Shown: piece by piece, positions 1-21,532 of the stretch | Position numbering within the stretch: position 1 is the stretch's first letter | Layout: each line of letters starts with the position of its first letter | IMG/VR virus record: IMGVR_UViG_3300042197_000785 | Location: 1-23,746 of that record | Direction: 5' to 3' (one strand) | Length of the DNA stretch: 23,746 bases | Source: a virus | Notes under the pieces: generated by a model | Database searches by the model: none | The model's input: only the letters and a program-made list of their open reading frames with translations | Told to the model about the DNA's origin: nothing | Program-made: the position numbers and the translations under genes

Positions 1-306
1 CAGCATTCCAGCTGGCGGCCTTACTCATTCCCCCACCAACCACGCCAGCCACCCACCAACCAGCCCACCAAAGTAGGCGACAACAGCCCGCCACTACCGT
101 CTCCGGCCCCCGCTTGCCGTCGATCTCCCCCACTGGGGCAGGGTCCTGGCGGGCCGTGCACGTTCGCAACGTCACAGCCGGACGCCAAGCGTCACCGGCC
201 ACTACCCTCGGCCTAGCCCACACGCAACCGGTAGTATGCCGCGCCACCCACACCCCAACATACTTATAAGGGTTTTGCTCGGTGTGTGGTTTTGTGCAGC
301 CTCGCA

Positions 307-328
307 GGGAAGGGGGGTGGGGTGGGGG
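307..328 (+). other. G-quadruplex motif
   Basis: Four G tracts (3, 6, 4 and 5 bases) are separated by loops of 2, 1 and 1 bases (AA, T, T). This satisfies the usual rule for a stable parallel G-quadruplex on the + strand. It sits just to the right of the C-rich to G-rich switch, ahead of the rightward genes, so it could affect transcription, replication or packaging. The function is inference; the motif is directly visible. Confidence 0.7.
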
Positions 329-376
329 TGTGTATCTGTGTGTGTGATGGTGTGGGTTTGGTTATCTCGTTTTGTG

Positions 377-395
377 ATACAAAATCTTTTTGTAT
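377..395. repeat. AT-rich 8-bp palindrome
   Basis: ATACAAAA at 377-384 is a perfect inverted repeat of TTTTGTAT at 388-395, with a 3-base TCT centre. It lies in the non-coding region after the G-rich tract. It could be a repressor operator or a weak hairpin. There is no T-run after a GC-rich stem, so it is not a typical intrinsic terminator. Confidence 0.5.
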
Positions 396-671
396 GTGAC
401 GTGTAGACCTGGTGTTGTCAGCTTCCCCCACGCTTCGCACTTTTTGTGCAGGTGGCCGTTGCTAGTTGTTTTTAGCCGACACCTTGTTTCAGATTACGTT
501 TCTGACGTCGCTCCCCTATTTCGATGAATAAGGGTCTACCCCAGTTCCCTGGTGTTCTGTGGCCCGCACCTTGCGAGTGGTGTACGCCCGTGGTTGCCTC
601 AACTGCTTCCCAGCGTGGAGGGCTTGATCGGTTGTGGGTTGAGTGTAGCAGATGGTGGTATGGTGTCAACT

Positions 672-1547
672 ATGGCTTCACGGAAAAAGTCTGATGGTGG
701 TGCGGAGCGGGCGAAAGGTCGTCAACGCGCACAGAATAAGAAGACGGAAGCGAAGTATGGTTTGCAGGGTTTCACCGCGCAAGCAAACAAGAATCTGCAG
801 AACCCTCGGTACATTCCTACGGCAAAACAGAGTGGTATGGGGATCATTGAGGCTTCTGGGTTTGGTGCTGCCCCTTCTGTTGGTCGTGCTGTCGCCAAAG
901 TTGCTTCTTCATCTCGAGTAATTCGTGCTGTGCAGGCTGTAAGTAGACGCGTGCTTCCTAAAGAAGTTGGCATCCATCATTCTGTTACTGGGCCTGATGG
1001 AAAACTTTTCAGAGGCACAGTCCGTCCTTCTGGGAAACAGGGTCGCACCGCGATGGATCAGATCCCAGGTAATTCTTATTTTTGGTCAACCAAAGGAAAA
1101 GGTGGGCCTGCAAAAGCCGCGAAAGAGGCAGAGTTCCAAACAAGAAACATCGCAGAAAACTGGATACTCGATGAAGGGACCAGGGCTTCTGCTTATGTGA
1201 CCAAGGTTCCTCGTGGTACATCTATGCCGGACATGAATGTTCCGGGATCGAGGGCAAGGACTGTTGTTGGTGGTCAGCAAATTGTTCGTGGTGTTGCCGG
1301 AACTGGCCCTGTTTCTCGTGGAACTATGAGTTCGTTGTCTGCGTCAGATTTGGCGAAACTTACCGCTGGAGTGAAAAGAGCAAAAGCTTTTGAGGCTGCT
1401 TCTTCAACAGCAAAAATTGCTGGAATCGTTGCTACGCCAAGCTTTGTTGCTGGTCGAGCATTGCAGGCTGGGACACCCAATTCTTCTCGGAACACTAAAG
1501 GCCGTCAAAGCGGTGGTCGTACATCTGGCAGGGCACCTAAGAAGTAA
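672..1547 (+). CDS. Basic protein with possible ADP-ribosyltransferase-like core
   Basis: A 291-residue protein of unproven function. The first 25 residues are Lys/Arg-rich. Residues 100-205 resemble the core of ADP-ribosyltransferase-type folds: a first strand with IHHS (101-104) and LFRGT (112-116), then SYFWSTKG (135-142), then an Ala-rich helix, then YVTKVPRGTSMPD (175-187), and VVGGQQIV (198-205) where the catalytic Glu strand would fall. No clear ExE is present, so activity is uncertain. The C-terminus has an Ala/Gly hydrophobic stretch followed by a Gly/Arg/Lys tail. I chose ATG 672 because the protein becomes phage-like there; ATG 660 in the same frame is an alternative, and neither has a strong Shine-Dalgarno. 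The tail resembles that of the protein starting at 4135. A virion-carried protein is possible. Confidence 0.6.
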   Translation: MASRKKSDGGAERAKGRQRAQNKKTEAKYGLQGFTAQANKNLQNPRYIPTAKQSGMGIIEASGFGAAPSVGRAVAKVASSSRVIRAVQAVSRRVLPKEVGIHHSVTGPDGKLFRGTVRPSGKQGRTAMDQIPGNSYFWSTKGKGGPAKAAKEAEFQTRNIAENWILDEGTRASAYVTKVPRGTSMPDMNVPGSRARTVVGGQQIVRGVAGTGPVSRGTMSSLSASDLAKLTAGVKRAKAFEAASSTAKIAGIVATPSFVAGRALQAGTPNSSRNTKGRQSGGRTSGRAPKK

Positions 1548-1549
1548 GT

Positions 1550-1615
1550 GCTGGCGGGTAGTGGGAGACCCGGAACGACAACCAGAAAAACGCTCTACGG
1601 AAACTACCCGCCAGC
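1550..1615. repeat. 13-bp inverted repeat with 40-base spacer
   Basis: GCTGGCGGGTAGT (1550-1562) is perfectly complementary to ACTACCCGCCAGC (1603-1615). The 40-base interval can form only short inner pairings, such as CCG (1570-1572) with CGG (1598-1600). No T-run follows, so this is not a standard terminator. It fills almost the whole gap between the first gene and the methyltransferase-terminase pair. It could be a structured RNA leader, a protein-binding site or a packaging-related site; none of these is shown. Confidence 0.75.
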
Positions 1616-1631
1616 GACTACACTTTAGCAG

Positions 1632-2126
1632 ATGAGAGGGTTTGCGCACGAGTCGTCGCATAACGAAACTGTTGAGTGGTACACCCCTAAATGGGTTTTT
1701 GACGCGCTCAACATAACTTTTGATTTGGATCCTTGTTCGCCTCAAACCGGTGGTTTTGTTCCTGCTCGACGAAAGTTATGGAAACCAGATTTTGATGGTT
1801 TGGCGGAACCGTGGGAAGGAAATGTTTGGCTAAATCCACCGTATGGTGCTGAAACTAAACTGTGGGTAAACCGGTTGGCTGAGCATGGGGAAGGGATTGC
1901 TTTAGTTTTTTCCCGTACTGGAACAAAGTGGTTTCAAAATGTTGCTCCACGGACATCAGCGGTTTGTTTTGTTTCTAAGCGGATTAGGTTTATCAACGGT
2001 TTGACTGGTGACGCTGGCGGGACCCCTGGGGCGGATTCAATGCTGATTGCTTTTGGTTCTGCCAATGCAAATGTTTTGCGGTTCTCAAATCTTGGTTCTG
2101 TTTTTGCGTATGATTGTTTTAGATGA
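1632..2126 (+). CDS. dam: Phage DNA N-6-adenine methyltransferase (Dam family)
   Basis: Predicted to transfer a methyl group from S-adenosylmethionine to the N6 of adenine in phage DNA, probably protecting it from host restriction or marking it for packaging. The 164 residues are typical of the short phage Dam family. EWYTPKWVFDAL (15-26) is the family's N-terminal signature, DLDPCSP (31-37) lies in the cofactor-binding region, and NPPYG (68-72) is the catalytic motif IV. IALVFSRTGTKWFQ (89-102) and the KRIRFING strand (116-123) also match. The start ATG lies 16 bases after the inverted repeat and has no clear Shine-Dalgarno. Its stop overlaps the terminase start (ATGA), implying translational coupling. 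It uses many T-ending codons and is AT-richer than the capsid genes. The target site cannot be read from the sequence. Confidence 0.85.
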   Translation: MRGFAHESSHNETVEWYTPKWVFDALNITFDLDPCSPQTGGFVPARRKLWKPDFDGLAEPWEGNVWLNPPYGAETKLWVNRLAEHGEGIALVFSRTGTKWFQNVAPRTSAVCFVSKRIRFINGLTGDAGGTPGADSMLIAFGSANANVLRFSNLGSVFAYDCFR

Positions 2127-4099
2127 CAGCAGGTAGGTCAGGTAGACGGCAGGTTCCGCCGCAAGATGTCGCCAGGTTTTGGCAGGCGCGTGCATCCGGC
2201 ATGTCGATCAAGGACGCAGCGAAGATCGCTGGGGTGCATTACAACACGGCACAAAAGTGGGATGCGAAAAAGAAAGCTGCGAAAGCCGAACTGGAGATAG
2301 CCCAACTTGAGGGTAAGACTCTCCGTAAGAAAGAGGGTGGTGTTCAGGCTGAGGCGTGGCAGAAGGTCATGGACGTCTCGGATCTGCCCCCAGTTATTCC
2401 GTATGACCGTTTGAAGCCTGAAGCACAGCGGGCGCTCGTGGATTTCGACTATTTCAGGCGCCGCTATCTGGGCAGGGTTCCTAGTCCGTGGCAGGTGGAT
2501 GCTGCTTACAAGATCGAGCAGTGGCTTCTGTCTGAGGAAAAAGAGTTTTTAGTGCTAAATTGCCCGCCAGGTGCAGGCAAATCCACCCTGTTCCACGATG
2601 TTGCGGTGTGGCAGATCGTGAAAAACCGGAAGATCCGTGTGATGATTGGATCCGTCTCCCAGGCGTTGGCGAAGATGTATTCGCGTCGTATCCGCGAAAC
2701 CCTAGAGCGCCAATTCCCGCTAGAACCAGACCCCATCCTCGTGGAGAAAGGGTTGGCTATCAAAGCAGAAGCTTGTCTCGCTATCGACTACGGGCGTTTC
2801 AAACCGTCTTCTTCAGGTAGTCTGTGGCGTGCAGAAGAATTCATTGTTGAACAGGAGGATTTAGGTGGATTGGATAACAAAGAACCAACAGTTAGCGCTT
2901 ACGGCATCGAATCTGAGTTCATCGGTCATCGCGCTGATCTTTGTTTGTTTGACGATGTGGCTTCTCCAGAGAATGCTAAAGAGTCGGCGGCAAGGGACAA
3001 GCTCATTGAGCGATGGGATTCGATGGCGGAAGCGCGAGTCGATCCAGGTGGACTCCTCGCCGTCATCGGCCAGCGGCTCGGGCCACTTGACCTATACGCT
3101 CATTGCCTCTCCAAAGTCACCTACGAAGAATTCGAAGACGACTACGAAGGCGAAGACGTCACCGACATCACCCAAGTCAAAGAACCCCTCAAAAAACAGA
3201 AATACCACCACCTCATCTACAGGGCGTACTACGAAGACCTCGACACCGGCAGAGAAAGCCGCCGCAACTCCAGCAGCCCGTGGCCAGAAGGCTGCCTCCT
3301 TGACCCGCAAAGGCTCTCCTGGAAAGACCTCTCGTACATCAAACACTCCAACCCAGCGAAATTTGCAATCGTCTACCAGCAAGAAGACCAAGCCGAAGGG
3401 AACTACCTAATCGAACGCGTCTGGGCCACCGGCGGAATGGGTCCAGACGGTGTTCTTTACCCAGGATGTATTGATAACGACAGGCGCCCCGGCTACATAC
3501 CTGATGGTTTACGGCCACCGATCATCTCGATAGCGTCCGTGGACCCCAGCCCCACCATGTTTTGGGCTATCCAATGGTGGCTTTTCCAACCAGAAACCAA
3601 CCTGCGTTACCTAGTGGACGTGGAACGCGTCAAACTGACCGCTGAACAGCTTCTCGGCTACGACACCACCAGCCGCGAATACTCCGGAATCATGGAAGAA
3701 TGGCAAAACCGCTCCTGGGACTACGGCTATCCCATTTCCCACTGGGTGGTAGAAGTCAACGCAGCCCAACGTTTCTTGTTGGCACACGATTTTGTGCGTA
3801 AATGGCAGGCTTTACAGCAGGTGAACGTGGTTCCGCACACCACTTCCCGCAACAAACTGGACGAAAACCTCGGTGTCGAAGCCCTGCTGCCCACATTGTG
3901 GCGTACCGGGCAGGTTCGACTGCCGACGATGCGTGAAAACTGGAAGACACTTGCGTTCATTGATGAGATGTCGTCGTGGACACGCGACAAAAAGAACGGC
4001 ACCGACCTTGTGATGGCACACTGGTTCGCAGAGTTACACATGCCGAACCTTGGTCCGGTGAAGCAGCCACCAAAGATGTGGCGTCCGTCTTGGATCTAG
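2123..4099 (+). CDS. terL: Terminase large subunit with N-terminal HTH
   Basis: The ATP-driven DNA packaging motor and nuclease that fills the prohead through the portal. Residues 26-47 (GMSIKDAAKIAGVHY onward) form a helix-turn-helix, followed by a Lys/Ala-rich linker to about 75. The ATPase follows: Walker A PPGAGKST (148-155), Walker B LCLFDD (273-278), and IGQRLGPLDLY (315-325) in the coupling position. The C-terminal RNase H-like nuclease has likely metal ligands D474 (ASVDPS), E544 (VVEVN) and D628 (GTDLVMAH). At 658 residues it is longer than most large terminases because of the N-terminal addition. No separate small-terminase gene is visible, so the fused HTH may do that job; this is inference. 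Codon use turns markedly C-ending between roughly 3040 and 3460. The start overlaps dam by 4 bases. Confidence 0.93.
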   Translation: MTAGRSGRRQVPPQDVARFWQARASGMSIKDAAKIAGVHYNTAQKWDAKKKAAKAELEIAQLEGKTLRKKEGGVQAEAWQKVMDVSDLPPVIPYDRLKPEAQRALVDFDYFRRRYLGRVPSPWQVDAAYKIEQWLLSEEKEFLVLNCPPGAGKSTLFHDVAVWQIVKNRKIRVMIGSVSQALAKMYSRRIRETLERQFPLEPDPILVEKGLAIKAEACLAIDYGRFKPSSSGSLWRAEEFIVEQEDLGGLDNKEPTVSAYGIESEFIGHRADLCLFDDVASPENAKESAARDKLIERWDSMAEARVDPGGLLAVIGQRLGPLDLYAHCLSKVTYEEFEDDYEGEDVTDITQVKEPLKKQKYHHLIYRAYYEDLDTGRESRRNSSSPWPEGCLLDPQRLSWKDLSYIKHSNPAKFAIVYQQEDQAEGNYLIERVWATGGMGPDGVLYPGCIDNDRRPGYIPDGLRPPIISIASVDPSPTMFWAIQWWLFQPETNLRYLVDVERVKLTAEQLLGYDTTSREYSGIMEEWQNRSWDYGYPISHWVVEVNAAQRFLLAHDFVRKWQALQQVNVVPHTTSRNKLDENLGVEALLPTLWRTGQVRLPTMRENWKTLAFIDEMSSWTRDKKNGTDLVMAHWFAELHMPNLGPVKQPPKMWRPSWI

Positions 4100-6545: not shown

Positions 6546-6938
6546 ATGAGTGACATGTACGCAAACCGCACGGATCTACAAAATCCGGCACAGAAGGTTG
6601 CCCGCCAAGTAGTACCCGGCCAAACCTATGGCGAGGGTGCTGCACAGATGCGGGCACAACAGGCTGTGCCGATGGGTCGTTCACCAGTAGAAACACAGGC
6701 TGCACCACGCCCAGTACCGGGAACACTTGGTGCGTTGAGCCGCCCAACCGAGCGCCCTAACGAGCCGATCACTGCTGGCGCACCATTCGGTGCTGGCCTT
6801 GGCCCTATCGAGGCTGGTATCCCGATGCCTGTTTCCCCGCAAGCGTCAGCATTGGAGGAGGTTCGCGCCATCGCTATGGCATCAGGAAACGATGACCTGC
6901 TGGATCTGCTTGACGCTTACGGGATGGACCTTCAGTGA
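6546..6938 (+). CDS. Small Pro/Gly/Ala-rich virion-region protein
   Basis: A 130-residue protein with no recognised enzyme domain. Most of it is low complexity and probably disordered, rich in Pro, Gly, Ala and Gln (for example PFGAGLGPIEAGIPMPVSPQ). The last ~30 residues are predicted helical and acidic (ALEEVRAIAMASGNDDLLDL). A GGAG ribosome-binding site at the end of the portal gene leads to the ATG, which follows the portal stop directly. Short proteins of this character often follow the portal in environmental phages, so an accessory head or neck role is plausible. Its end overlaps the next start (GTGA). Confidence 0.75.
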   Translation: MSDMYANRTDLQNPAQKVARQVVPGQTYGEGAAQMRAQQAVPMGRSPVETQAAPRPVPGTLGALSRPTERPNEPITAGAPFGAGLGPIEAGIPMPVSPQASALEEVRAIAMASGNDDLLDLLDAYGMDLQ

Positions 6939-9900
6939 AGCCACAAGACGCACTCGATAACAGCACATACCAGTCAACTCTAAAAAAGAAACAGCAACAG
7001 CAGGCTTCGCTGACGCCGCAACAAACGCAGCGGCTTGGTGAAATCAAGGCTCGTGCAGGCTGGATCCCACCAGACCAAGCGGTAGCACTCGCTAGAGCAG
7101 CCGCATCTGACGCTGCCGTTGACGCTGTTGCCGACATGAAAGGCCGTCAAATCATTGACGAGCAAGGATCAGATGAGGCCGAGGGCGGCTGGGCAAGAAG
7201 GTTTCTTTACAACCCACTGAAAGCCGCTTCGCGGTGGACGTTCGCTGGATTGAATTTTCTTCCAGAATTCGTGCAGGGTGGCATGGCACAGTTCGGCAAA
7301 CCAGGCGACACGCTGTTCCAAGACGGCTGGTTCACCGCAACATCTTTGGGAACAATGCTCAAGAACCCTGAGGCTCGCGGCCAAGGTTTCTTCATGTCTG
7401 AACAAGGACAAGAACTACAGGCTGAACGCGCAAGAAAATACCGCGGAACTATCAACGGTTCGGCGTGGACTGTTGGGCGAGCAGCAGCAAACTTGGTGTT
7501 CAAACCAAACTCGCTGCCATACAACACGATGTCTGGTGTCCTTGATGCGCTCGTTCTCATCAAAACCGACCCAACTGGTCCGGCAACAAAAATGTATAAG
7601 TACGCAACCAAAGGCAAATACACGGTTCCGCTTTTGGCCGCTGAAGAAACAGCTGGCATCCGTGCCGCACTGGAATCCGAGGCTGGCATCACTAAAAGTT
7701 TGGCTGGAGCTGTCCTAGACGGAAGCAAATTTGATTCGTTTGCTCGATCAAACCCACGAATGCAGTGGATGGTCAACTGGCTCACCAAAGAAAAAGATGC
7801 TTTGCGGATCGCAGAAAAGTTTGAATACAACCTTCCAAACGAACTTGTTGTCGCCCTATCTCAAGCAGATGATCCCGAAGTGGTCAAGGGAATCTTGGCT
7901 GCTGGGTGGACCGTTTCTCGTGGCGCACTCCCATCAGACATCCGACTTATCCAAGGCAATCGATTCACCAGCACTATCGGTGAACTCCTGGTCCAACGCA
8001 TGCCGCTTATTGACGGCGTACGAAAGTCACGTTATTTCACTACTGCCGAATCTGGTGCATTCAGTATCAACGGAACAGTTGACGACAACAAACAGGCGGT
8101 CAAGTCAATCGTGTCGTACCTGCGAACCGCAGGTGTCGATCAGGCTCGTGTAACACAGATAGCAAATCAGGCGCTGCGTTCATTTACCACGTCATCCACA
8201 ACGGCGTCACAGAAAAAAACGCTTGATCTGTTTGAGTCAACACTCAGAGAAGTAATGGATTTGGACGGCATTCCAAAAGAATCTATTGACGAACTTTTTG
8301 CTCGTGGCCGAGGTGGATTAGACAAAATTAGGCGTTATTTGCAAAGCCGCGCAGGTCGCCCGATTGACAACGGTTATGCGTCGTACATCTTGAACAAGAA
8401 CCGTGAATACATTCCGGACGAAGAAATTGACACGTTGCTTGGAAAACTTGGCGCTACTGGCGACTCCAAGTTGACGATTACTTCGCCGCTTGAACTGTCA
8501 GAACTTTTGGACAGGACGGTGATGATGCCGTCTATTCGTGAGGTTAGACGCTATACGCGCAACCCGTTGTTCCGTAATTTGCTTGGTGACAAGGTTGGAA
8601 AAATTCCTCTCACCGCTAAGCGAAAACTGCGTCAAATTGAAGTCATAACAGATCAGGCTGAATTCGATCGTTTGGGTGGCGAAATTAGTCAACTAATGAA
8701 AATCCGCAACCGGTCGGCCCAAGAAACAGAGGAACTGGATCGATTGAACCAGGCTCGTGCTGCTCTTATCAAGAAAGAAATGAAGCGCGTTATCACGCCA
8801 GAACAAAACGCGGCCATTGCAGCAATCGACCACATCCAAAACCAGCTGTGGAAGCCACTTGCTTTGGCTACTGGTGGTTATGTAGTGCGTAACTCGCTAG
8901 ACGCTCAAATCCGTATGGCGTTCTCCGATTTGCCATCAGTGTTCACTCATCCGTTTGAATACATCAACCTTGTCCTTGGATCTTCGAAGAAGATGACTTT
9001 ACGCATGGAAAACATTGCGAATGTGCGTCGTTCAGCAAAACCTGGTGAAGTGTTGGACGAAGGCGTTATCACTGTTGACGACTTGGTTGATGATGTGCGC
9101 AACGGGATGATGATTGACATGAGATCACAAGGTTTAGGTTCGCTTGATGTCGAAAACCACAAAATGGTTACAGGCGTATTTGACAACGTTGAACGAGGAA
9201 TGACCAACGGTTTGGAGCTGCATACCGATGGCATGGTCCAAAACATGCGTCGAACCAATGCCGAAACCCTAAATCGCGTAGTAGCACAAACACTTGCGGA
9301 ATACGGTTCTCCTAGCCAACAGGCCCGTGGGGACGCAGCTAATCGTGTTGTCAACATTTTGATGAAAGACGAAAATCTTCGCCGCGAAGTTGACGAATTG
9401 CATCAATTCGGGTTTGAGGTAACCAATCAGGCCACTGGTGCGACAGAACGCACACCAGGAATCCTTCTTTCTGGTTTACCCGATGATGAACTAAGGCAGC
9501 ATTATTACCAGTGGGCCATGCGAACAATGGTTGACAAAATTCAGGTTTTGACCGGAAACATCCCGGAAGCCCAATTTATGACAGCGTTTGGATACACGCC
9601 AATCACCGCTAAATGGAAAATGGTTGGCGCATTTGATGAAGGTGTGGAAAACCTCAAAATCCTTGAAAAAAGAACTGACCAACTTGTTGGTTCGCTAGTG
9701 CAGATTGATGACAACAACGTGGGGATCGTTACGCAAATACGAAATGCCGATACTGGCCAAGTAGTTATCGACCCGTTTGACGGTTCTGTGGTTGCTTTGG
9801 AGCGAGCAGTAGCAACAGTCCAGCCGGTACACCCGAACCAGTCTTTTGGATCGTTACTCGGTGATCGTGAAGCAAGAAAACTTCTCAACAACATGCCGGT

Positions 9901-11800
9901 TTCTGAGGATCCCAAGATCCCCGGTTTGCCGCCCGTTATCAAACGAGAACTATTGAAGACTGACCCGAAAGACAAGAACGCTTGGGACAGCGTGATGGAA
10001 ACCTACAATGCGGGAACTGACTGGTTCTTTGGCCGCCTGTACGCAAACATCAGCCGCAGGCTTGAACGCTCCCCCGTGTTTCGTGAGTTCTACTACCGAG
10101 AAGTGTACGACTATGTTGACCAACTGCGTCCAGAAGAAGCACAGAAGTTCCTTGACGATGTGCTGAAGGCGGCAAATGAGGCTGGAATGAAACCAGCCGA
10201 GTATGTCGGAGACAAGAAAATTTTGTCTGCTATGCAAAAGTCAACCAAAACTCAAGGCAACATCGGCCTGGAAGAACTTGATGATTACGCAAAATTCGTG
10301 GCACTCACCAAAACCAAGGAACTGTTGTACAACGTATCTTCCAAGTCAAACCTTGAGGATGCTTTGCGTATCATCATGCCATTCGCCCCAGCATGGCGCG
10401 AAATCATCACCACCTACACAGGATTCTTGCGTTCCAACCCGCTGAACGCAAGCCGATCCTTCCAACGGATCTACACGGGTGCCACTGGCGCAGACCCCGA
10501 TAACGATGGCCGAGGATTCTTCTATGAAGACCCAAACACCCAACAAATGATGTTCATGTTCCCAGCATCAGGAACACTTGCTAAAGCGTTGACCGGACTT
10601 GAAGCACCACTCGAAGCGCCTGTTCGCCGGTTCTCGCAAGGTCTACAAGTTGTTCCTGCGCTCGGCCCGATGGGTCAGATCGCCGCAAGCAAAATCCTGC
10701 CAATGGTTCCAGAACCAGAGTTCATCACCGAAATTATTCTGCCGTACGGATCCAAGGGCGTATCAACAGCGTTCAACCCGATGCCAGGCTGGTTGAATAA
10801 AGGTTTGCAGGCTTTGAGCGCACCAACAGGCGACCTCGGCACCGTGTTCGGCAACACCTATGTCGAAACATACCGTGCCCTATCAGCATCCGGCGACTAC
10901 GACCTGAACAACCGTGACGACCTAATCCAAATGGAGAAGGACGCCAAGTTCAAGGCCCGCATTTTGACTGCTTTCCGTGCCGCATCACAGTTCTTCGGCC
11001 CAACAGCTGGTGCAACCGAGTTCAAAATTGATACCGCTGAAGGTGATGTGTTCGTTGGTGAACTAATCAAAACTTTCTACGACATGCAAGCCAACCCGCA
11101 AATCGGGTACGACCGCGCCATCCCAACATTTTTGGAACAGTTCGGTGACGAAGTGGCATTGTACGTTTCGTCTAAGAGCAAGTCTGTTGCTGAGGGTTTG
11201 GAAGCAACAAAAGAGTTCCAGGATTGGGCCGACCAAAACGGTGAACTGGTTTCCGCATACCCGTCGGTTGCCCGCTATTTGGCTCCAGCAGGATCAGATT
11301 TCTCGTTCACTGTGTGGGATCAGCAAATCCAGCGTGGTGAGCGTGTCCGTCTATCACCGGACGAGATTCGTCGTTTGGCTCAGCAGCGCATCGGTTCCGC
11401 CATGTTTCGTGCCGCCCGCAAACAGGTTGGACCGTACCCGTCCGAGGAGGCCAAAGATCTGTTGAAACGGTATCGAGGCTTTCTGCACAAAAAGTACCCT
11501 GGTTTCCCGCTGGTCGCCGAGTTTGAGGTTGGCGCCTACTACAACCAGGTGGCTGAGTTGAAGGAAATGGTGTTAGATCGTCGTGTTGCTGGTGACGAAA
11601 CGGCGGAAGCGGTGAAACAGTATTTGATTGCCCGTGATGCCGCTATCCGTTCTGCTGGTACTACCGAGCAAGGGTTCCGTACTGCCCGTGACGCAGTTCA
11701 GCAGCGGGCAACTTTGGATGCTTTGGGTCTGTCGTTGTCGGAACGTATCCCGAACTTCGCTCGCATTTATGATCGCCTACTAGCATCAGAGGTTGAGTAA
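6935..11800 (+). CDS. Giant virion-associated protein (1621 aa)
   Basis: By far the largest gene. No catalytic motif is evident, and there is no signal peptide. The N-terminus has a Gln/Lys-rich stretch (KKKQQQQASL, 17-26) followed by helical, Ala-rich sequence and a conserved-looking NPLKAASRWTFAGLNFLPEF (93-112). Around residues 1130-1180, SKSNLEDALRIIMPFAPAWR and FLRSNPLNASRSFQRIY resemble a segment common in very large phage head and polyvalent-type proteins. Hydrophobic segments near 1210-1300 (AKALTGLEAPLEAP, QVVPALGPMGQIAASKI) could associate with membrane during ejection. Lying between portal and scaffold, it is best explained as an internal, ejected protein like those of podoviruses; a tape measure is less likely because no tail genes flank it. 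GTG start overlaps the previous stop. Confidence 0.65.
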   Translation: MKPQDALDNSTYQSTLKKKQQQQASLTPQQTQRLGEIKARAGWIPPDQAVALARAAASDAAVDAVADMKGRQIIDEQGSDEAEGGWARRFLYNPLKAASRWTFAGLNFLPEFVQGGMAQFGKPGDTLFQDGWFTATSLGTMLKNPEARGQGFFMSEQGQELQAERARKYRGTINGSAWTVGRAAANLVFKPNSLPYNTMSGVLDALVLIKTDPTGPATKMYKYATKGKYTVPLLAAEETAGIRAALESEAGITKSLAGAVLDGSKFDSFARSNPRMQWMVNWLTKEKDALRIAEKFEYNLPNELVVALSQADDPEVVKGILAAGWTVSRGALPSDIRLIQGNRFTSTIGELLVQRMPLIDGVRKSRYFTTAESGAFSINGTVDDNKQAVKSIVSYLRTAGVDQARVTQIANQALRSFTTSSTTASQKKTLDLFESTLREVMDLDGIPKESIDELFARGRGGLDKIRRYLQSRAGRPIDNGYASYILNKNREYIPDEEIDTLLGKLGATGDSKLTITSPLELSELLDRTVMMPSIREVRRYTRNPLFRNLLGDKVGKIPLTAKRKLRQIEVITDQAEFDRLGGEISQLMKIRNRSAQETEELDRLNQARAALIKKEMKRVITPEQNAAIAAIDHIQNQLWKPLALATGGYVVRNSLDAQIRMAFSDLPSVFTHPFEYINLVLGSSKKMTLRMENIANVRRSAKPGEVLDEGVITVDDLVDDVRNGMMIDMRSQGLGSLDVENHKMVTGVFDNVERGMTNGLELHTDGMVQNMRRTNAETLNRVVAQTLAEYGSPSQQARGDAANRVVNILMKDENLRREVDELHQFGFEVTNQATGATERTPGILLSGLPDDELRQHYYQWAMRTMVDKIQVLTGNIPEAQFMTAFGYTPITAKWKMVGAFDEGVENLKILEKRTDQLVGSLVQIDDNNVGIVTQIRNADTGQVVIDPFDGSVVALERAVATVQPVHPNQSFGSLLGDREARKLLNNMPVSEDPKIPGLPPVIKRELLKTDPKDKNAWDSVMETYNAGTDWFFGRLYANISRRLERSPVFREFYYREVYDYVDQLRPEEAQKFLDDVLKAANEAGMKPAEYVGDKKILSAMQKSTKTQGNIGLEELDDYAKFVALTKTKELLYNVSSKSNLEDALRIIMPFAPAWREIITTYTGFLRSNPLNASRSFQRIYTGATGADPDNDGRGFFYEDPNTQQMMFMFPASGTLAKALTGLEAPLEAPVRRFSQGLQVVPALGPMGQIAASKILPMVPEPEFITEIILPYGSKGVSTAFNPMPGWLNKGLQALSAPTGDLGTVFGNTYVETYRALSASGDYDLNNRDDLIQMEKDAKFKARILTAFRAASQFFGPTAGATEFKIDTAEGDVFVGELIKTFYDMQANPQIGYDRAIPTFLEQFGDEVALYVSSKSKSVAEGLEATKEFQDWADQNGELVSAYPSVARYLAPAGSDFSFTVWDQQIQRGERVRLSPDEIRRLAQQRIGSAMFRAARKQVGPYPSEEAKDLLKRYRGFLHKKYPGFPLVAEFEVGAYYNQVAELKEMVLDRRVAGDETAEAVKQYLIARDAAIRSAGTTEQGFRTARDAVQQRATLDALGLSLSERIPNFARIYDRLLASEVE

Positions 11801-16955: not shown

Positions 16956-17282
16956 ATGCCGATTTTTCGCCCACCAACAGATGACTTCACTCGGTATGGC
17001 GACTACACCCAGATGGGCGTACAGCGGTTCCTTTGGCGTTTTTACGATGCTGAGCCGCGTGGCCGGAATGTCTACAAACTGAATGACGGAACTTTTACCG
17101 AGGCAGACATTCGTGACGAAGGGCAAATAGTCCGTGTCTACCACGGGGGTCACGACAACTATGTGACTGACGCTGAGGCTGACGATCTCGTTGCGGCTGG
17201 GTACACGATTCTCCCAGGCACCTTTGAACTTAGTTCTTCTTATTCTGGCGAAATTGGTGGCGGTGCTACTCTTGGTGTCTAA
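16956..17282 (+). CDS. Small conserved phage protein, unknown
   Basis: 108 residues. I chose ATG 16956 (MPIFRPP) because the open frame upstream runs into the terminator and starts with an implausible TTG. There is no clear Shine-Dalgarno. The centre, [15 protein letters not shown] then [20 protein letters not shown] and LVAAGYTI, is a pattern I associate with small proteins beside fibre or neck genes of environmental phages, but no function is established. The C-terminus is Ser/Gly-rich. The stop overlaps the collagen-like gene start (TAATG), so the two are probably translated together and the proteins may associate. Confidence 0.75.
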
Positions 17283-18478
17283 TGGCTGGTGAAGGGTACA
17301 GAAAGTTCACTCAAGAGACGTTGGATGTTTCTGAGATAAACGATTACCTGGCATCCCAGGTTGTTGCTGTTTTTGATTCTGCTGCGGATCGTGAAAATTA
17401 TTTCAATACGGGTGGGGCGTTCAGTGTTACTGAGGGGATGATTACGTTCCTGAAGGATGTGAATCAGCTTCAGGTGTTTTATGAGACTGGTTGGACTGCG
17501 TTTGGTGCGCAGGGTTCTACTGGTGCTCAGGGTGCGCAGGGTCCTCAAGGGGTTCAGGGTGCTCAAGGTGCGCAAGGGGCTGCGGGTTCGACTGGCCCGC
17601 AGGGTTCGACTGGCCCGCAGGGGCCTCAGGGTCCACAGGGTGCGACGGGTGGCACTGGTTCACAGGGCGCTCAGGGTGCGCAGGGTGCGATTGGCCCACA
17701 GGGTCCTCAAGGCAATCAGGGTCCTACTGGTTCGCAGGGTGCTGTTGGGCCTCAGGGCGCCAAGGGCGACACGGGCGCACAGGGTGATGCTGGTCCTACT
17801 GGTGCGCAGGGACCGCAAGGTAATACCGGGCCGCAAGGTGCTGCTGGTGCACAGGGCGCTCAAGGCCCGCAGGGACCTCAAGGACCTCAAGGCGATGTTG
17901 GTCCACAGGGCGCTACTGGCGCTCAAGGTGCGACGGGCGCTCAAGGTGCTCAAGGTGCGCAGGGGGCTACTGGCCCGCAGGGTGCGCAGGGTCCTGGTGT
18001 GGCGGTTGGTGGTACTGCTGGCCAGTTGCTTTCGAAGGTTGATGGCACGAACTACAATACGACTTGGATTAACGCTCCAGTTACAGTTGTAGATGCGCTG
18101 AGCGCCGCAACCGTGGCTACATCACAAACCACTACTAGCGGGACGTATACCGATTTATCAACCTCTGGCCCGACTGTTACGGTCACGACAACGACTAAAG
18201 CGCTAGTTATTCTTACCGCATACTTGACGGGTAATGTTGGTGCCGAAGAATACTTTATGAGTTTTGCGGTATCAGGGGCAACAACCATTTCTGCCGCTGA
18301 CACCCAAGCATTACGCGTCGACATTTCAACCGCTAACGAAGGCACACAAATGAGCGCGGTTTATCCAGTCACACTCACCGCAGGGTCAAACACGTTTACA
18401 GCCAAATACAGACGTGGTGGCCCCGCTGGAACACTTACAGCAAGCGACCGAAGCATTACGGTGATTTCTTATGCGTAA
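17282..18478 (+). CDS. Collagen-like fibre or decoration protein
   Basis: A 398-residue structural protein with three parts. Residues 1-74 form an N-terminal domain ([20 protein letters not shown]) that probably anchors to the virion. Residues 75-239 are 55 consecutive Gly-X-Y triplets without a break, expected to form a trimeric collagen helix. Gln occupies Y in 35 triplets and Thr in 12; GAQ (16) and GPQ (15) dominate; there is one Lys. Residues 240-398 form a beta-rich C-terminal domain beginning [20 protein letters not shown], a common tail-fibre transition, followed by a Ser/Thr-rich stretch and strands ending in SITVISYA, which may trimerise or bind a receptor. The gene lies upstream of three glycosyltransferases, so glycosylation is a reasonable hypothesis. 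The start overlaps the previous stop. Confidence 0.9.
17504..17998 (+). repeat. Gly-X-Y coding repeat
   Basis: Fifty-five 9-base units, mostly variants of GGT-GCN-CAR and GGN-CCN-CAR, encode the collagen helix. Codon choice varies between units, which limits exact identity, but slippage or recombination could change the length. Because the repeat is so regular, long frames also appear open in other phases here; they are artefacts. Confidence 0.92.
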
Positions 18479-18725: not shown

Positions 18726-19532
18726 ATGAAAATCTCTGTCGTAACCACGACATACAACACACCCCCTGACGTACTCGCCCGTACCTGGGCATCGCTAAAA
18801 GCCCAACGGTACAAGAACTGGGAGTGGGTTATCTGGGATGACTCCACCACCACCGACGTGTGGCAACAGGTGTATGGCTTTGCTTCAGACGAACGCTACA
18901 AAATCAGTATGCACCGCTCCCACGTCCACAGCGGCTCGATAGGTGCAGTCAAACGCAAAGCGTTCATGGTCTCCACAGGGGACATCCTGCTCGAACTAGA
19001 CCACGATGACGAACTCACCCCAGACTGCCTACGCGAAGTCGCATCCGCCTTCTACGAAAATCCTGCCACAGGCTTCGTTTACTCTGACTGGTGCGAACTG
19101 CTACCAGACGGACAATCAGGGAAATACCCTGACGGCTGGGCGTTCGGCTACGGCAACCACTACTGGTCCGACGAACACGGGGTGTGGGTCATGCAAGCCC
19201 CACCCGTAAACCTCACCACCATGAGCCACATCGTCTCCGCCCCAAACCATGTGCGAGCGTGGCGAGCCGACGCATACAGGGCACTCGGCGGCCACAACCC
19301 AGACCTCCCCATTGCAGACGACTACGAACTGTGTGTCCGCACCATCCTCGAATACCCGCACACCCAGATACCGAAGATGCTTTACAAACAGCACATCGGG
19401 GCACACACCGCCCAACGGCAACGCAACGGACTCATCCAGGCACTTGTCGCGCAGATAGAAGCCAACTACCATGATGCCCTAGCGAAAGTGGATTGGGATG
19501 ATAAAGCATCAGGAAACGCACCCAGGGCTTGA
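18726..19532 (+). CDS. Glycosyltransferase, family 2-like (GT-A fold)
   Basis: Predicted to transfer a sugar from a nucleotide-sugar donor. MKISVVTTTYNTPPDVLART (1-20) is the standard GT2 start, with the first Asp pair at WDDS (37-40). DHDD (92-95) is the metal-binding DxD-type motif, and GGHNPDLPIADDYELCVR (188-205) carries the acceptor-side acidic residues (D198/D199). There are no membrane segments, so it is likely cytosolic. The 268-residue length is normal for a single GT-A domain. Codons end predominantly in C, a sharp contrast to the T/G-ending codons of the next two glycosyltransferases, which suggests a different origin. Donor and acceptor are unknown; the collagen-like protein just upstream is one candidate, host-type surface glycan another. 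Confidence 0.88.
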   Translation: MKISVVTTTYNTPPDVLARTWASLKAQRYKNWEWVIWDDSTTTDVWQQVYGFASDERYKISMHRSHVHSGSIGAVKRKAFMVSTGDILLELDHDDELTPDCLREVASAFYENPATGFVYSDWCELLPDGQSGKYPDGWAFGYGNHYWSDEHGVWVMQAPPVNLTTMSHIVSAPNHVRAWRADAYRALGGHNPDLPIADDYELCVRTILEYPHTQIPKMLYKQHIGAHTAQRQRNGLIQALVAQIEANYHDALAKVDWDDKASGNAPRA

Positions 19533-19776: not shown

Positions 19777-20441
19777 CTGTCTCGGATGTGGCGTTGGTCG
19801 GGTTTTGTTGGGGTGATTTTTGGGAACGGTTCGGCACCCAATGGATTGGGACTATTGAGGCACTGAACCCGCAACCTGAGCGCATCTTGTTGCTGACCGA
19901 TAAACCTGTGAGCCTGCCGTTCGGCTGGGATCAAGAACATACGGAACACAGCACGATTTGGGATGTCATCAACACCGGGTATGTAAAGGCTGAAACCAAG
20001 TATGTGGCTGGTTTAGCAATGGATGATCTAATGCCCAAAGATGCGCTGTATGACCTAAAACTCGATGTTGATGTCGTGGTATCAGGGCATCGAGACACAC
20101 TCGGGAACATCAACATTCCTACCCGCGAACGGTACGAGAACTGTTTGGATGAGCCGTGGTATCCGCTATCTGGTTACCATGTGATGCGGTCAGACCTGTT
20201 CACCGAGATACCTTTGCGCCCGGTTGATTGGTGCGACTGGATCAACATGTTTGAGTGGTATCAGCATGGTTTGAACCTGCATTTTGATGGCAGGGTACGT
20301 CAGTTGTATACGATCCGTGACGGCCAGTATTCGCAACCCAAAAACCCGAAGCAGGCTCGCGCCAACATCAACCTGATGCGCGACCTGATCCGTAACGGTG
20401 GGGTGAAACCTGGGGCGGTGTGGCCGCCTGAGCCGCTATGA
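19773..20441 (+). CDS. Predicted GT-A type glycosyltransferase
   Basis: 222 residues resembling compact GT-A transferases. The N-terminal strand and turn are DVALVGFCWGDFWERF (5-20), followed by QWIGTIEALNPQPERILLLT (23-42), typical of a nucleotide-binding half. IWDVINTGYVKAETKYVAGL (62-81) leads into MDDLMPKDAL (83-92), where DD at 84-85 would be the metal-binding motif; a second acidic stretch, LDVDVVVSGH, follows at 97-106. PLSGYHVMRSDLF and VDWCDWINMFEWYQHGLNLH fit the acceptor part. GTG start, overlapping the stop upstream; the ATG of the next gene overlaps its stop. Substrates are unknown. The fold call is less certain than for its two neighbours. Confidence 0.65.
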   Translation: MTVSDVALVGFCWGDFWERFGTQWIGTIEALNPQPERILLLTDKPVSLPFGWDQEHTEHSTIWDVINTGYVKAETKYVAGLAMDDLMPKDALYDLKLDVDVVVSGHRDTLGNINIPTRERYENCLDEPWYPLSGYHVMRSDLFTEIPLRPVDWCDWINMFEWYQHGLNLHFDGRVRQLYTIRDGQYSQPKNPKQARANINLMRDLIRNGGVKPGAVWPPEPL

Positions 20442-21532
20442 AGCATCAGTATTGGCACGGCTTCACTGACGCACGGTTTGGTTATGGCTCGATGCTGGTC
20501 GGATTCATTGAGAACAAACCCGAGGACGTGCACCTTGATCCGAAAGCCAGTGTGAATGTTCACATGGGTGTCCCGTTCTCGATCAAAGGTTGGTACAAGG
20601 GTGCGTATCGGGTGTGTTTCACGATGTGGGAAACCGATGTTCTGCCTCCACGGTTTGCTCGATGGCTGTCCCAGTATGACGAGATACTTGTGCCGTGTCA
20701 TCACAACATCGCTGTGTTCCATGAGCATCACCCGAAAGTGAACTACATTCCGCTGGGGGTGGACACTGGCTGGTGGACGCCGCAGCCACGGGAAGAAAAC
20801 AAAGTGTTCAGGTTCCATGCAGCTGGGTCGTTGTGGCGCAGGAAAGGTTTGGACAAGGTGGTGGAGGCGTTCAACAAACTGGGTTTGCCTGACACCGAGT
20901 TGCACATCAAAGCCGCACCCCACGCCAGTGACGTCCCCCAGGAGCCTTTGGGTGACCGCGTGTTCCTGCATCGGCAGTGGATGGATCGAGAAACCCAGCG
21001 GGACTGGTTCAATCAGGCTGACTGTTTTGTTGCCCCTGCCCGTGGTGAAGGGTTCGGGTTGATTCCGTTGCAGGCTATTGCGCTTGGTGTCCCAACGATT
21101 GTGAGTGACAGTTCGGGTCAAGCCCAGTTCGCTCATTTGGCTACCTCGGTGGTGTCCAGTCGCAAGGAAATCTGCTTCATGGGTGGCCGGTGGGACGAAC
21201 CAAACCTGGACCACCTAGTGCAGTTGATGAGGTTCCACTATCAGAACCGCAAAAGCCTGTGGATCGAGGCTCAGACTAAAGCGAAAAAGGCTGACGAGTT
21301 CTCATGGGCGAAAGCGGCCCAAAAACTGGCTGACCACTTGCCTTTGGGCCGCAAGCTCGGTAACGTGAAGTTTGAAGAGCCGCGTGTCATGTTCCCGATG
21401 GAGGTAATCCGTCGATCCGTTTGCGAGATAAACGGGCAACGCTGGGAGTTTGAACCCGGCAAGGTGTATCAGGTGGCTGAGAATGTGCATGACATAATGG
21501 TGGCTAACGGTGCTGTGAAGGAGAAGTCGTGA
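20438..21532 (+). CDS. Glycosyltransferase, family 4-like (GT-B fold)
   Basis: Predicted retaining sugar transferase of 364 residues. The donor-binding half shows FHAAGSLWRRKGLDKVVEAF (126-145), with the Arg/Lys phosphate contacts, and PARGEGFGLIPLQAIALG (200-217), the E-X7-E region. The second Glu of that motif is Gln212 here, which could alter donor contact. The acceptor half includes CFTMWETDVLP (60-70) and YIPLGVDTGWWTP (103-115). A C-terminal extension (about 325-364), RSVCEINGQRWEFEPGKVYQ onward, is not part of the usual GT-B domain and resembles a small beta module seen in other phage virion proteins. It overlaps the previous gene by ATGA and the next by GTGA. Confidence 0.87.
   Translation: MKHQYWHGFTDARFGYGSMLVGFIENKPEDVHLDPKASVNVHMGVPFSIKGWYKGAYRVCFTMWETDVLPPRFARWLSQYDEILVPCHHNIAVFHEHHPKVNYIPLGVDTGWWTPQPREENKVFRFHAAGSLWRRKGLDKVVEAFNKLGLPDTELHIKAAPHASDVPQEPLGDRVFLHRQWMDRETQRDWFNQADCFVAPARGEGFGLIPLQAIALGVPTIVSDSSGQAQFAHLATSVVSSRKEICFMGGRWDEPNLDHLVQLMRFHYQNRKSLWIEAQTKAKKADEFSWAKAAQKLADHLPLGRKLGNVKFEEPRVMFPMEVIRRSVCEINGQRWEFEPGKVYQVAENVHDIMVANGAVKEKS

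Follow-up and report, generated by a model that had tools for sequence, protein, structure and literature searches.

The 13-bp inverted repeat at positions 1550 to 1615 of the window is probably a minus-strand structured RNA gene of about 66 nt (RNA1, read from 1615 to 1550), and RNA1 is conserved across a group of uncultured bacterial viruses. By window we mean the whole stretch of DNA analysed, a 23,746-base IMG/VR virus record that is classed as linear and in which no end repeats were found. In the scheme that we propose from sequence comparison, the promoter TGNTANNNT at 1630-1622 would point left and start the RNA where the hairpin begins, at about 1615, and the transcript would fold into a 13-bp outer stem and an inner stem with a UA bulge, leaving UCUCCC as an internal loop on the 3′ side. 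In the opposite direction, the same -10 region would start a leaderless mRNA of the following gene, and a second structured RNA, RNA2, would be made further left from a promoter of its own. We infer that RNA1 and RNA2 act as regulators at the RNA level during infection.

The repeat is real and has the form given in the sequence-only reading of this DNA. Its arms, 1550-1562 (GCTGGCGGGTAGT) and 1603-1615 (ACTACCCGCCAGC), are 13 bases long, exactly complementary and separated by a 40-base centre; no other perfect inverted repeat of 13 bp with a spacer of 10-60 nt occurs in the window, and 30 first-order shuffles of the window contained none. It also nearly fills the intergenic gap, as had been claimed: the hairpin occupies 66 of the 84 bases from the stop of a plus-strand ORF (672-1547, no family match) to the start of dam at 1632, and the ORF stops 2 nt short of the hairpin. 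The dam-type gene (1632-2126, plus strand) codes for an N6-adenine methyltransferase (Pfam PF05869, E 1.1e-13) and is followed by terL, the terminase large subunit gene (2123-4099, plus strand; PHROG 38, E 2.1e-66), which served as the anchor for comparison with other phages. The fold of 1535-1630 is more stable than its shuffles on either strand (z -4.55 on the plus strand and -4.33 on the minus strand).

On the minus strand, the predicted RNA1 hairpin (1550-1615, 5′ base near 1615) is delimited by its fold, by the match to a covariance model and by covariation. The outer stem P1 pairs 1615-1603 with 1562-1550 over 13 bp; the inner stem consists of P2a (1601-1598 with 1572-1569), the UA bulge (1597-1596) and P2b (1595-1591 with 1577-1573), and is closed by an apical loop (1590-1578), with the internal loop UCUCCC on the 3′ side (1568-1563). 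The covariance model, R1, was built from the minus-strand sequences of seven other phages with a structure that we supplied and with the promoter excluded. It matched the window on the minus strand at RNA1 (39.2 bits, E 2.5e-8 in the window) and found 43 other elements at E < 1e-4, one per locus; because R1 was built on minus-strand sequences, its scores on the two strands are not compared as evidence. Among 23 distinct sequences, 15 of the 20 pairs changed on both sides (12 of 13 outer and 3 of 7 inner pairs), a level reached in 0 of 500 shuffles, and 98.4% of the cells were paired (again 0 of 500 shuffles), compared with 32-46% when the partner was slid by 1-3 columns; the alignment was fitted to R1, which biases these figures toward the structure. 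Compensatory changes, for which an alignment of relatives had been proposed, are thus found above both the shuffled and the slid controls, as for a conserved structured RNA: the arms swap sequence and stay paired.

The usual minus-strand form has an outer stem of 9-13 bp, a CCG/CGG pairing with a UA-type bulge, a GAGC/GCUC pairing, an apical loop that varies and a 3′ internal loop rich in pyrimidines. Eight of 44 distinct hairpins, including those of L048, L050, L059 and L065, lack CTCC entirely and have a different interior. Wobbles on the minus strand comprise 17 G.U and 0 A.C, with 7 other mismatches; this strand bias is modest evidence, since in the best-sampled family the changes are confined to one arm and the opposite arm is all G/U, so that any transition makes a wobble. 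In another family, two C.A cells occur at the end pair.

A scan of viral contigs with TerL gave 80 loci, the best 80 of 186, and the hairpin was found upstream of terL in 63 of these best 80. Of the 63, 43 were found with R1 at E < 1e-4, two by an earlier R1 search (L027, where the contig end cuts the hairpin, and L044, E 0.18), 15 more by a strict repeat scan requiring a TANCA motif 9-14 nt further on, and three (L047, L055 and L075) by a scan for promoter plus stem. L027 was omitted from the second R1 search, and the coordinates for L021 and L026 are those of R1, the strict scan having picked the wrong hairpin there. A loose hairpin scan allowing G.U pairs and mismatches proved too noisy and was given up for the strict one. 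No accepted hairpin was found in 17 of the 80 loci (L005, L028, L039, L060-L064, L066, L067, L071, L072, L074, L076 and L079-L081), several of which are short on the upstream side; L066 gave one weak promoter-plus-stem candidate, which was left out of the 63. On reading the 150 nt upstream of terL, many loci showed a hairpin like that of the window, before either terL or a cassette gene, and in L002, whose TerL is 95% identical to that of the window, the hairpin stands directly before terL. A second TerL scan placed RNA1 in 10 of 32 loci examined; the loci of the two scans overlap in contigs, and two of the 10, L099 and L102, are the same contigs as L075 and L069. Searched with R1, five of six relatives had RNA1 at a single place per contig, and the sixth, G003, has the divergent L046 form. 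Two loci (L069 4919-4978 and L070 4922-4970) have between RNA1 and terL a second hairpin, which has CGAGGAGG on the plus strand, giving two tandem elements. L120 has a reduced element: on its minus strand, immediately in front of terL, there is a 42-nt hairpin, GUCGGCUACAGGACCUCCAGGUUCCUCCUUCCUGUAGCCGAC, in which CCUCC occurs twice.

Proximity to terL in the relatives and the perfect inverted repeat would suit a DNA element, either a packaging (pac/cos) site, as the sequence-only reading had raised, or a two-half-site operator. The arms are replaced as matched pairs among relatives (GTTGGTGGG, GCTGGCGGG, GCCGGTCGG, GTCTACCGG and others), which is unlike a sequence-specific protein site, and the 17 of the best 80 loci (of 186) that gave no accepted hairpin, some of them short upstream, also argue against it. 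In addition, ten TerL-bearing contigs of 38-40 kb end at varied distances from terL and not at the hairpin, a weak argument given that assembly ends need not be genome ends. We consider a DNA element extremely unlikely, and the packaging site was set aside as unsupported. Integron-type attC sites and N4-type hairpin promoters were considered as further candidates.

A plus-strand terminator or insulator working without a U-tract, which would keep transcripts of the upstream gene from running into the dam/terL promoter, is also compatible with the conservation and covariation of the stem, and by reading the hairpin follows the upstream stop codon by a few bases in the window, L002 and L024. However, no T-run directly follows the hairpin on either strand, as had been noted from the sequence, so that the GC-rich hairpin plus T-run of an intrinsic terminator is lacking. 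The terminator scan does not list 1550-1615. By reading, L006, L011, L018 and L068 already have a GC hairpin with a T-run just before RNA1, and on this side of RNA1 L019 and L007 have a divergent ORF. A terminator would also leave the inner stem, the CUCC loop and the spacing of the minus-strand promoter unexplained, and we regard it as unlikely.

The minus-strand RNA gene that we favour is preceded by a putative extended -10 promoter, TGCTAAAGT, at 1622-1630 on the minus strand, 6 nt before the first stem base. It has no -35, and a scan for the TTGACA/TATAAT consensus does not list it. All 44 elements found with R1 have the motif TGNTANNNT on the minus strand, separated from the first stem base by 5-7 nt (6, 7 and 5 nt in 24, 13 and 7 elements, respectively), as expected of an extended -10 at a fixed distance from the proposed start; these 44 have 24 distinct promoter sides and 16 distinct motifs, seven are R1 seeds, and many are near-identical. 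At random positions, with a spacing of 4-9 nt, the motif occurs in 0.26% of cases, and on the mirror side, 5′ of the hairpin on the plus strand, it occurs in 0 of 73 elements. The 73-element set is partly circular with respect to the promoter, because some of its elements were chosen with that motif, and the 44 elements found by R1 are the fair test. Four near-full-length relatives contain TGNTANNNT 2.0-3.4 fold less often than first-order shuffles do, as can be the case for promoter motifs, although coding constraint may contribute. In Mycobacterium tuberculosis, one account links TGNTANNNT, as an extended -10, to higher activity and reports that no -35 motif was found (PMC3898074). Our guess is that the hosts of these phages are actinobacterial.

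The other direction has a signal of its own. TACACT (1619-1624, plus strand), a -10-like TANNNT 7 nt before the ATG of dam, is a putative promoter for a leaderless dam/terL message and overlaps the RNA1 promoter. An ORF starts within 40 nt of 46 distinct elements, and in 42 of these TANNNT precedes the start by 4-12 nt, compared with 4.9% by chance. This plus-strand signal partly follows from the minus-strand motif, because TANNNTA reads TANNNT on both strands and the base after the minus-strand TANNNT is A in 43 of 53 cases. A plus-strand leaderless promoter as the sole cause of the TANCA motif was dropped, since the reverse complement of that motif is TGNTANNNT at a fixed spacing, and was kept as the second direction. 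A -10 region shared by both directions is the simplest account of the two motifs and is of a kind described in bacteria (PMC12825309); judging by these motifs, the other direction probably starts a leaderless mRNA, of dam here and of terL in many relatives.

These two signals also bear on the suggestion that the hairpin is a structured leader controlling the packaging operon. The hairpin stands 15-24 nt before the ORF start in 45 of these 46 elements, and a good fold is obtained for the plus strand too, both of which would suit a plus-strand leader of the dam/terL message; a read-through transcript from upstream would still carry the hairpin. Nevertheless, the extended -10 was found 5′ of the hairpin on the plus strand in none of the 73 elements, the fitting promoter is on the opposite strand in all 44, and TANNNT between the hairpin and the start codon predicts a leaderless message that begins downstream of the hairpin. 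Such a leader is very unlikely in our judgement; from the structured-RNA idea of the sequence-only reading we keep the conserved structure near terL, with its compensatory changes (15 of 20 pairs, 0 of 500 shuffles), and give up the assignment to the packaging operon.

The dam gene itself is apparently a cassette between RNA1 and terL. Dam as the ancestral neighbour of the hairpin was rejected: tblastn with Dam gave no match in the TerL loci (best 80 of 186), and a protein scan of viral contigs for close relatives of Dam confirmed none. The interval from RNA1 to terL resembles a hot spot for insertions, with dam here and different contents in L003, L014, L016, L021, L026 and L031. The cassettes of the relatives are methyltransferase or HNH-like ORFs, mostly by reading, and the phage of L014 has an N6_N4 methyltransferase by search. 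Elsewhere in the window, a 1621-aa protein is encoded at 6935-11800 between the portal and capsid genes; a 1517-aa protein in a similar place in L082 had no PHROG match. A collagen-like protein with Gly-X-Y repeats (17282-18478, by reading) is followed by two glycosyltransferases, at 18726-19532 and 20438-21532, identified by family matches.

The conserved unit is made up of promoter and hairpin, and in most cases nothing beyond the hairpin belongs to it. When elements were paired whose hairpins are at least 95% identical, 76 of the 146 pairs had 3′ flanks at most 40% identical, and unrelated flanks beside near-identical hairpins indicate that conservation stops at the hairpin. A scan of window 300-2200 revealed no terminator-like site on the minus strand; a T-run is present 133 nt past the RNA1 hairpin. 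In G001, G003 and G005 the RNAs are followed, on the same strand and opposite to terL, by a block of small ORFs (simple ORF calls), and in G002 and G007 the ORFs there are mostly on the opposite strand, so that the small-ORF block is present in 3 of 5 mapped near-full-length relatives. G001 has recombination and methyltransferase genes on the terL strand. L019 (4733-4888) and L007 (4750-4905) have similar 51-aa ORFs on the minus strand (MGKQLGTSGRI... and MGRKLGTSGRI...) about 20 nt after RNA1.

It is possible from this arrangement that RNA1 begins a longer leftward transcript and acts in cis, on RNA polymerase or on the next gene, as a put-type nascent-transcript element or another 5′ leader. 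The inferred +1 falls at RNA1 or close to it, much as HK022 putL follows PL directly; the put RNA is described as two stem-loops and has a documented antitermination activity (PMC9378689). The small ORFs that follow on the RNA1 strand in G001, G003 and G005 would also fit, and the 51-aa ORFs mean that RNA1 could be a leader in L019 and L007. In contrast, RNA1 is one interrupted hairpin rather than two stem-loops, the plus-strand ORF at 672-1547 separates it from RNA2 in the window, the flanks of near-identical hairpins are unrelated in those 76 of 146 pairs, and the following ORFs of G002 and G007 are mostly on the other strand. We regard a cis-acting RNA of this kind as somewhat unlikely, and an HK022 put-like effect of the nascent RNA on RNA polymerase, to which we give the same standing, is the main alternative mechanism for RNA1.

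RNA1 has a neighbour on the same strand. The core of RNA2, a larger, multibranched structured RNA of about 168 nt, is placed at 427-594 on the minus strand by a covariance model, R2, and by two-sided pair changes. R2 was built from 11 other phages without the window, the core limits being set on an alignment that includes it, and matched window 594-427 on the minus strand with 125.9 bits (E 1.1e-38). Across nine sources, six matched (L017, L068, the window, L006, L002 with 55 bits and L077 with 36 bits), and L046, L048 and L073 gave no match. The consensus of 12 sequences, including the window, has 46 pairs, of which 26 show two-sided changes (pair counts without a shuffle control). A promoter-like site, TTGACA, 16 nt, TGC-TACACT (TTGACA/TGCTACACT), was found by consensus scan at 642-669 on the minus strand (10 of 12 matches, the second hexamer being preceded by TG), the scan giving 2 sites compared with 1.0 expected in shuffles. 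TGCTAC is at the equivalent place in 12 of 12 RNA2 rows, which were picked with a -10 pattern; minus-strand sequences left of RNA1 that were picked with this pattern, having a TGCTAC-type -10 at their start, are conserved over about 170 nt. A putative second form of RNA2 (L046, L047, L048, L051, L056, L059, L063 and L065) has 47 pairs, 10 of them two-sided. Beyond RNA2, window 1-430 has no convincing ORF and contains CA/CC-rich and GT-rich stretches, and a similar GT-rich stretch occurs at L002 4212-4291.

Exact patterns found at least 120 stretches of the first RNA2 form and 39 of the second in viral contigs. With the first form counted at this lower bound of 120, a TerL relative was present in 143 of the 159 RNA2 stretches found, and in 64 of the 66 that have at least 4.5 kb on the terL side; at a strict cut-off, an RNA1-like hairpin was present in 55 of the 159, and 87 RNA2 stretches with at least 1.5 kb on the RNA1 side had none. 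Since a TerL relative accompanies so many RNA2 stretches and an RNA1-like hairpin only 55, RNA2 is the more constant and more widespread partner, and it is probably the more interesting of the two. Base pairing between RNA1 and RNA2 was rejected: over 18 phages, native pairs were no better than swapped ones (-32.9 within a phage and -33.6 kcal/mol between phages).

Neither RNA has been recognized in the collections that we searched. Rfam release 15 gave 0 matches at gathering thresholds in the window and nine relatives, and the sub-threshold matches of RNA1 and RNA2 were to unrelated families at 13-16 bits. ARAGORN found no tRNA or tmRNA in seven loci. Three regions compared by BLAST with 50,697 phage records yielded either no match or a single chance-like hit of 28 nt, a plasmid search gave no match, and a TerL scan of GTDB genomes confirmed no relative. 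Among the GTDB genomes, the RNA2 pattern was found in a single stretch, in a Bacteroides MAG (L330), where R2 matched 26 nt with 15 bits (E 2.2e-4 in 8 kb); this was taken as chance because the matched 26 nt are the stretch selected by the pattern itself. Judged by titles and abstract openings, the literature searched in full text, with subscription journals mostly outside it, gave no account of RNA1 or RNA2.

As to function, the likeliest mechanism, which we propose tentatively, is that the CUCC loop of RNA1 pairs with Shine-Dalgarno-type GGAG sites and tunes translation. CUCC resembles the 16S anti-Shine-Dalgarno sequence, a likeness that suggests pairing with Shine-Dalgarno sites. Of 44 distinct hairpins, 35 have CUCC not followed by GG in the 3′ half of the core, compared with 24% in shuffles, and 5 have it in the 5′ half, related sequences inflating the 3′-half count; in the predicted fold of the window it is unpaired. 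It is missing from the 3′ half in nine of the 44 (L044, L048, L050, L055, L057, L059, L065, L075 and L132). We count against our best explanation that the portal gene of these phages looks, by eye, to be led by a Shine-Dalgarno sequence. One could also imagine RNA1 as an anti-Shine-Dalgarno mimic that blocks messages led by such sites while the leaderless terL and cassette messages, begun at the shared bidirectional -10 element, escape, RNA2 being a second, larger partner acting on another host machine, which we find very improbable.

Two structured RNAs beside terL, both without an Rfam match, offer a handle on RNA-level control in environmental phages, and the covariance model can be used to annotate such contigs. 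If the proposal is right, a minus-strand start is expected near 1615, RNA1 should be either a discrete species of about 66 nt or a leader, and the following gene should have a leaderless message.

S. aureus RNAIII is an sRNA whose C-rich loops pair with Shine-Dalgarno sites. RNA1 resembles such C-rich-loop sRNAs in being a predicted stable hairpin that displays a pyrimidine-rich CUCC/UCCC loop; those sRNAs, however, are bacterial and have known targets, whereas any targets of RNA1 are putative. GOLLD is a large structured RNA carried by phages, and RNA2 is likewise a conserved structured RNA carried by phages, although its core is only about 168 nt and, unlike GOLLD, RNA1 and RNA2 have no Rfam match. 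RNA1, as predicted, is like HK022 putL and putR a structured phage RNA of around 70 nt, and putL stands directly after its promoter (PMC9378689); put has two adjacent stem-loops and RNA1 a single hairpin with an inner stem, and the phages are unrelated. Finally, the extended -10 promoters of M. tuberculosis (PMC3898074) and bidirectional promoters (PMC12825309) are similar to the region studied here in their motif, their leaderless mRNAs and their pseudo-symmetric -10 region, but in these phages one direction seems to serve a structured RNA and the other a late-gene cassette.
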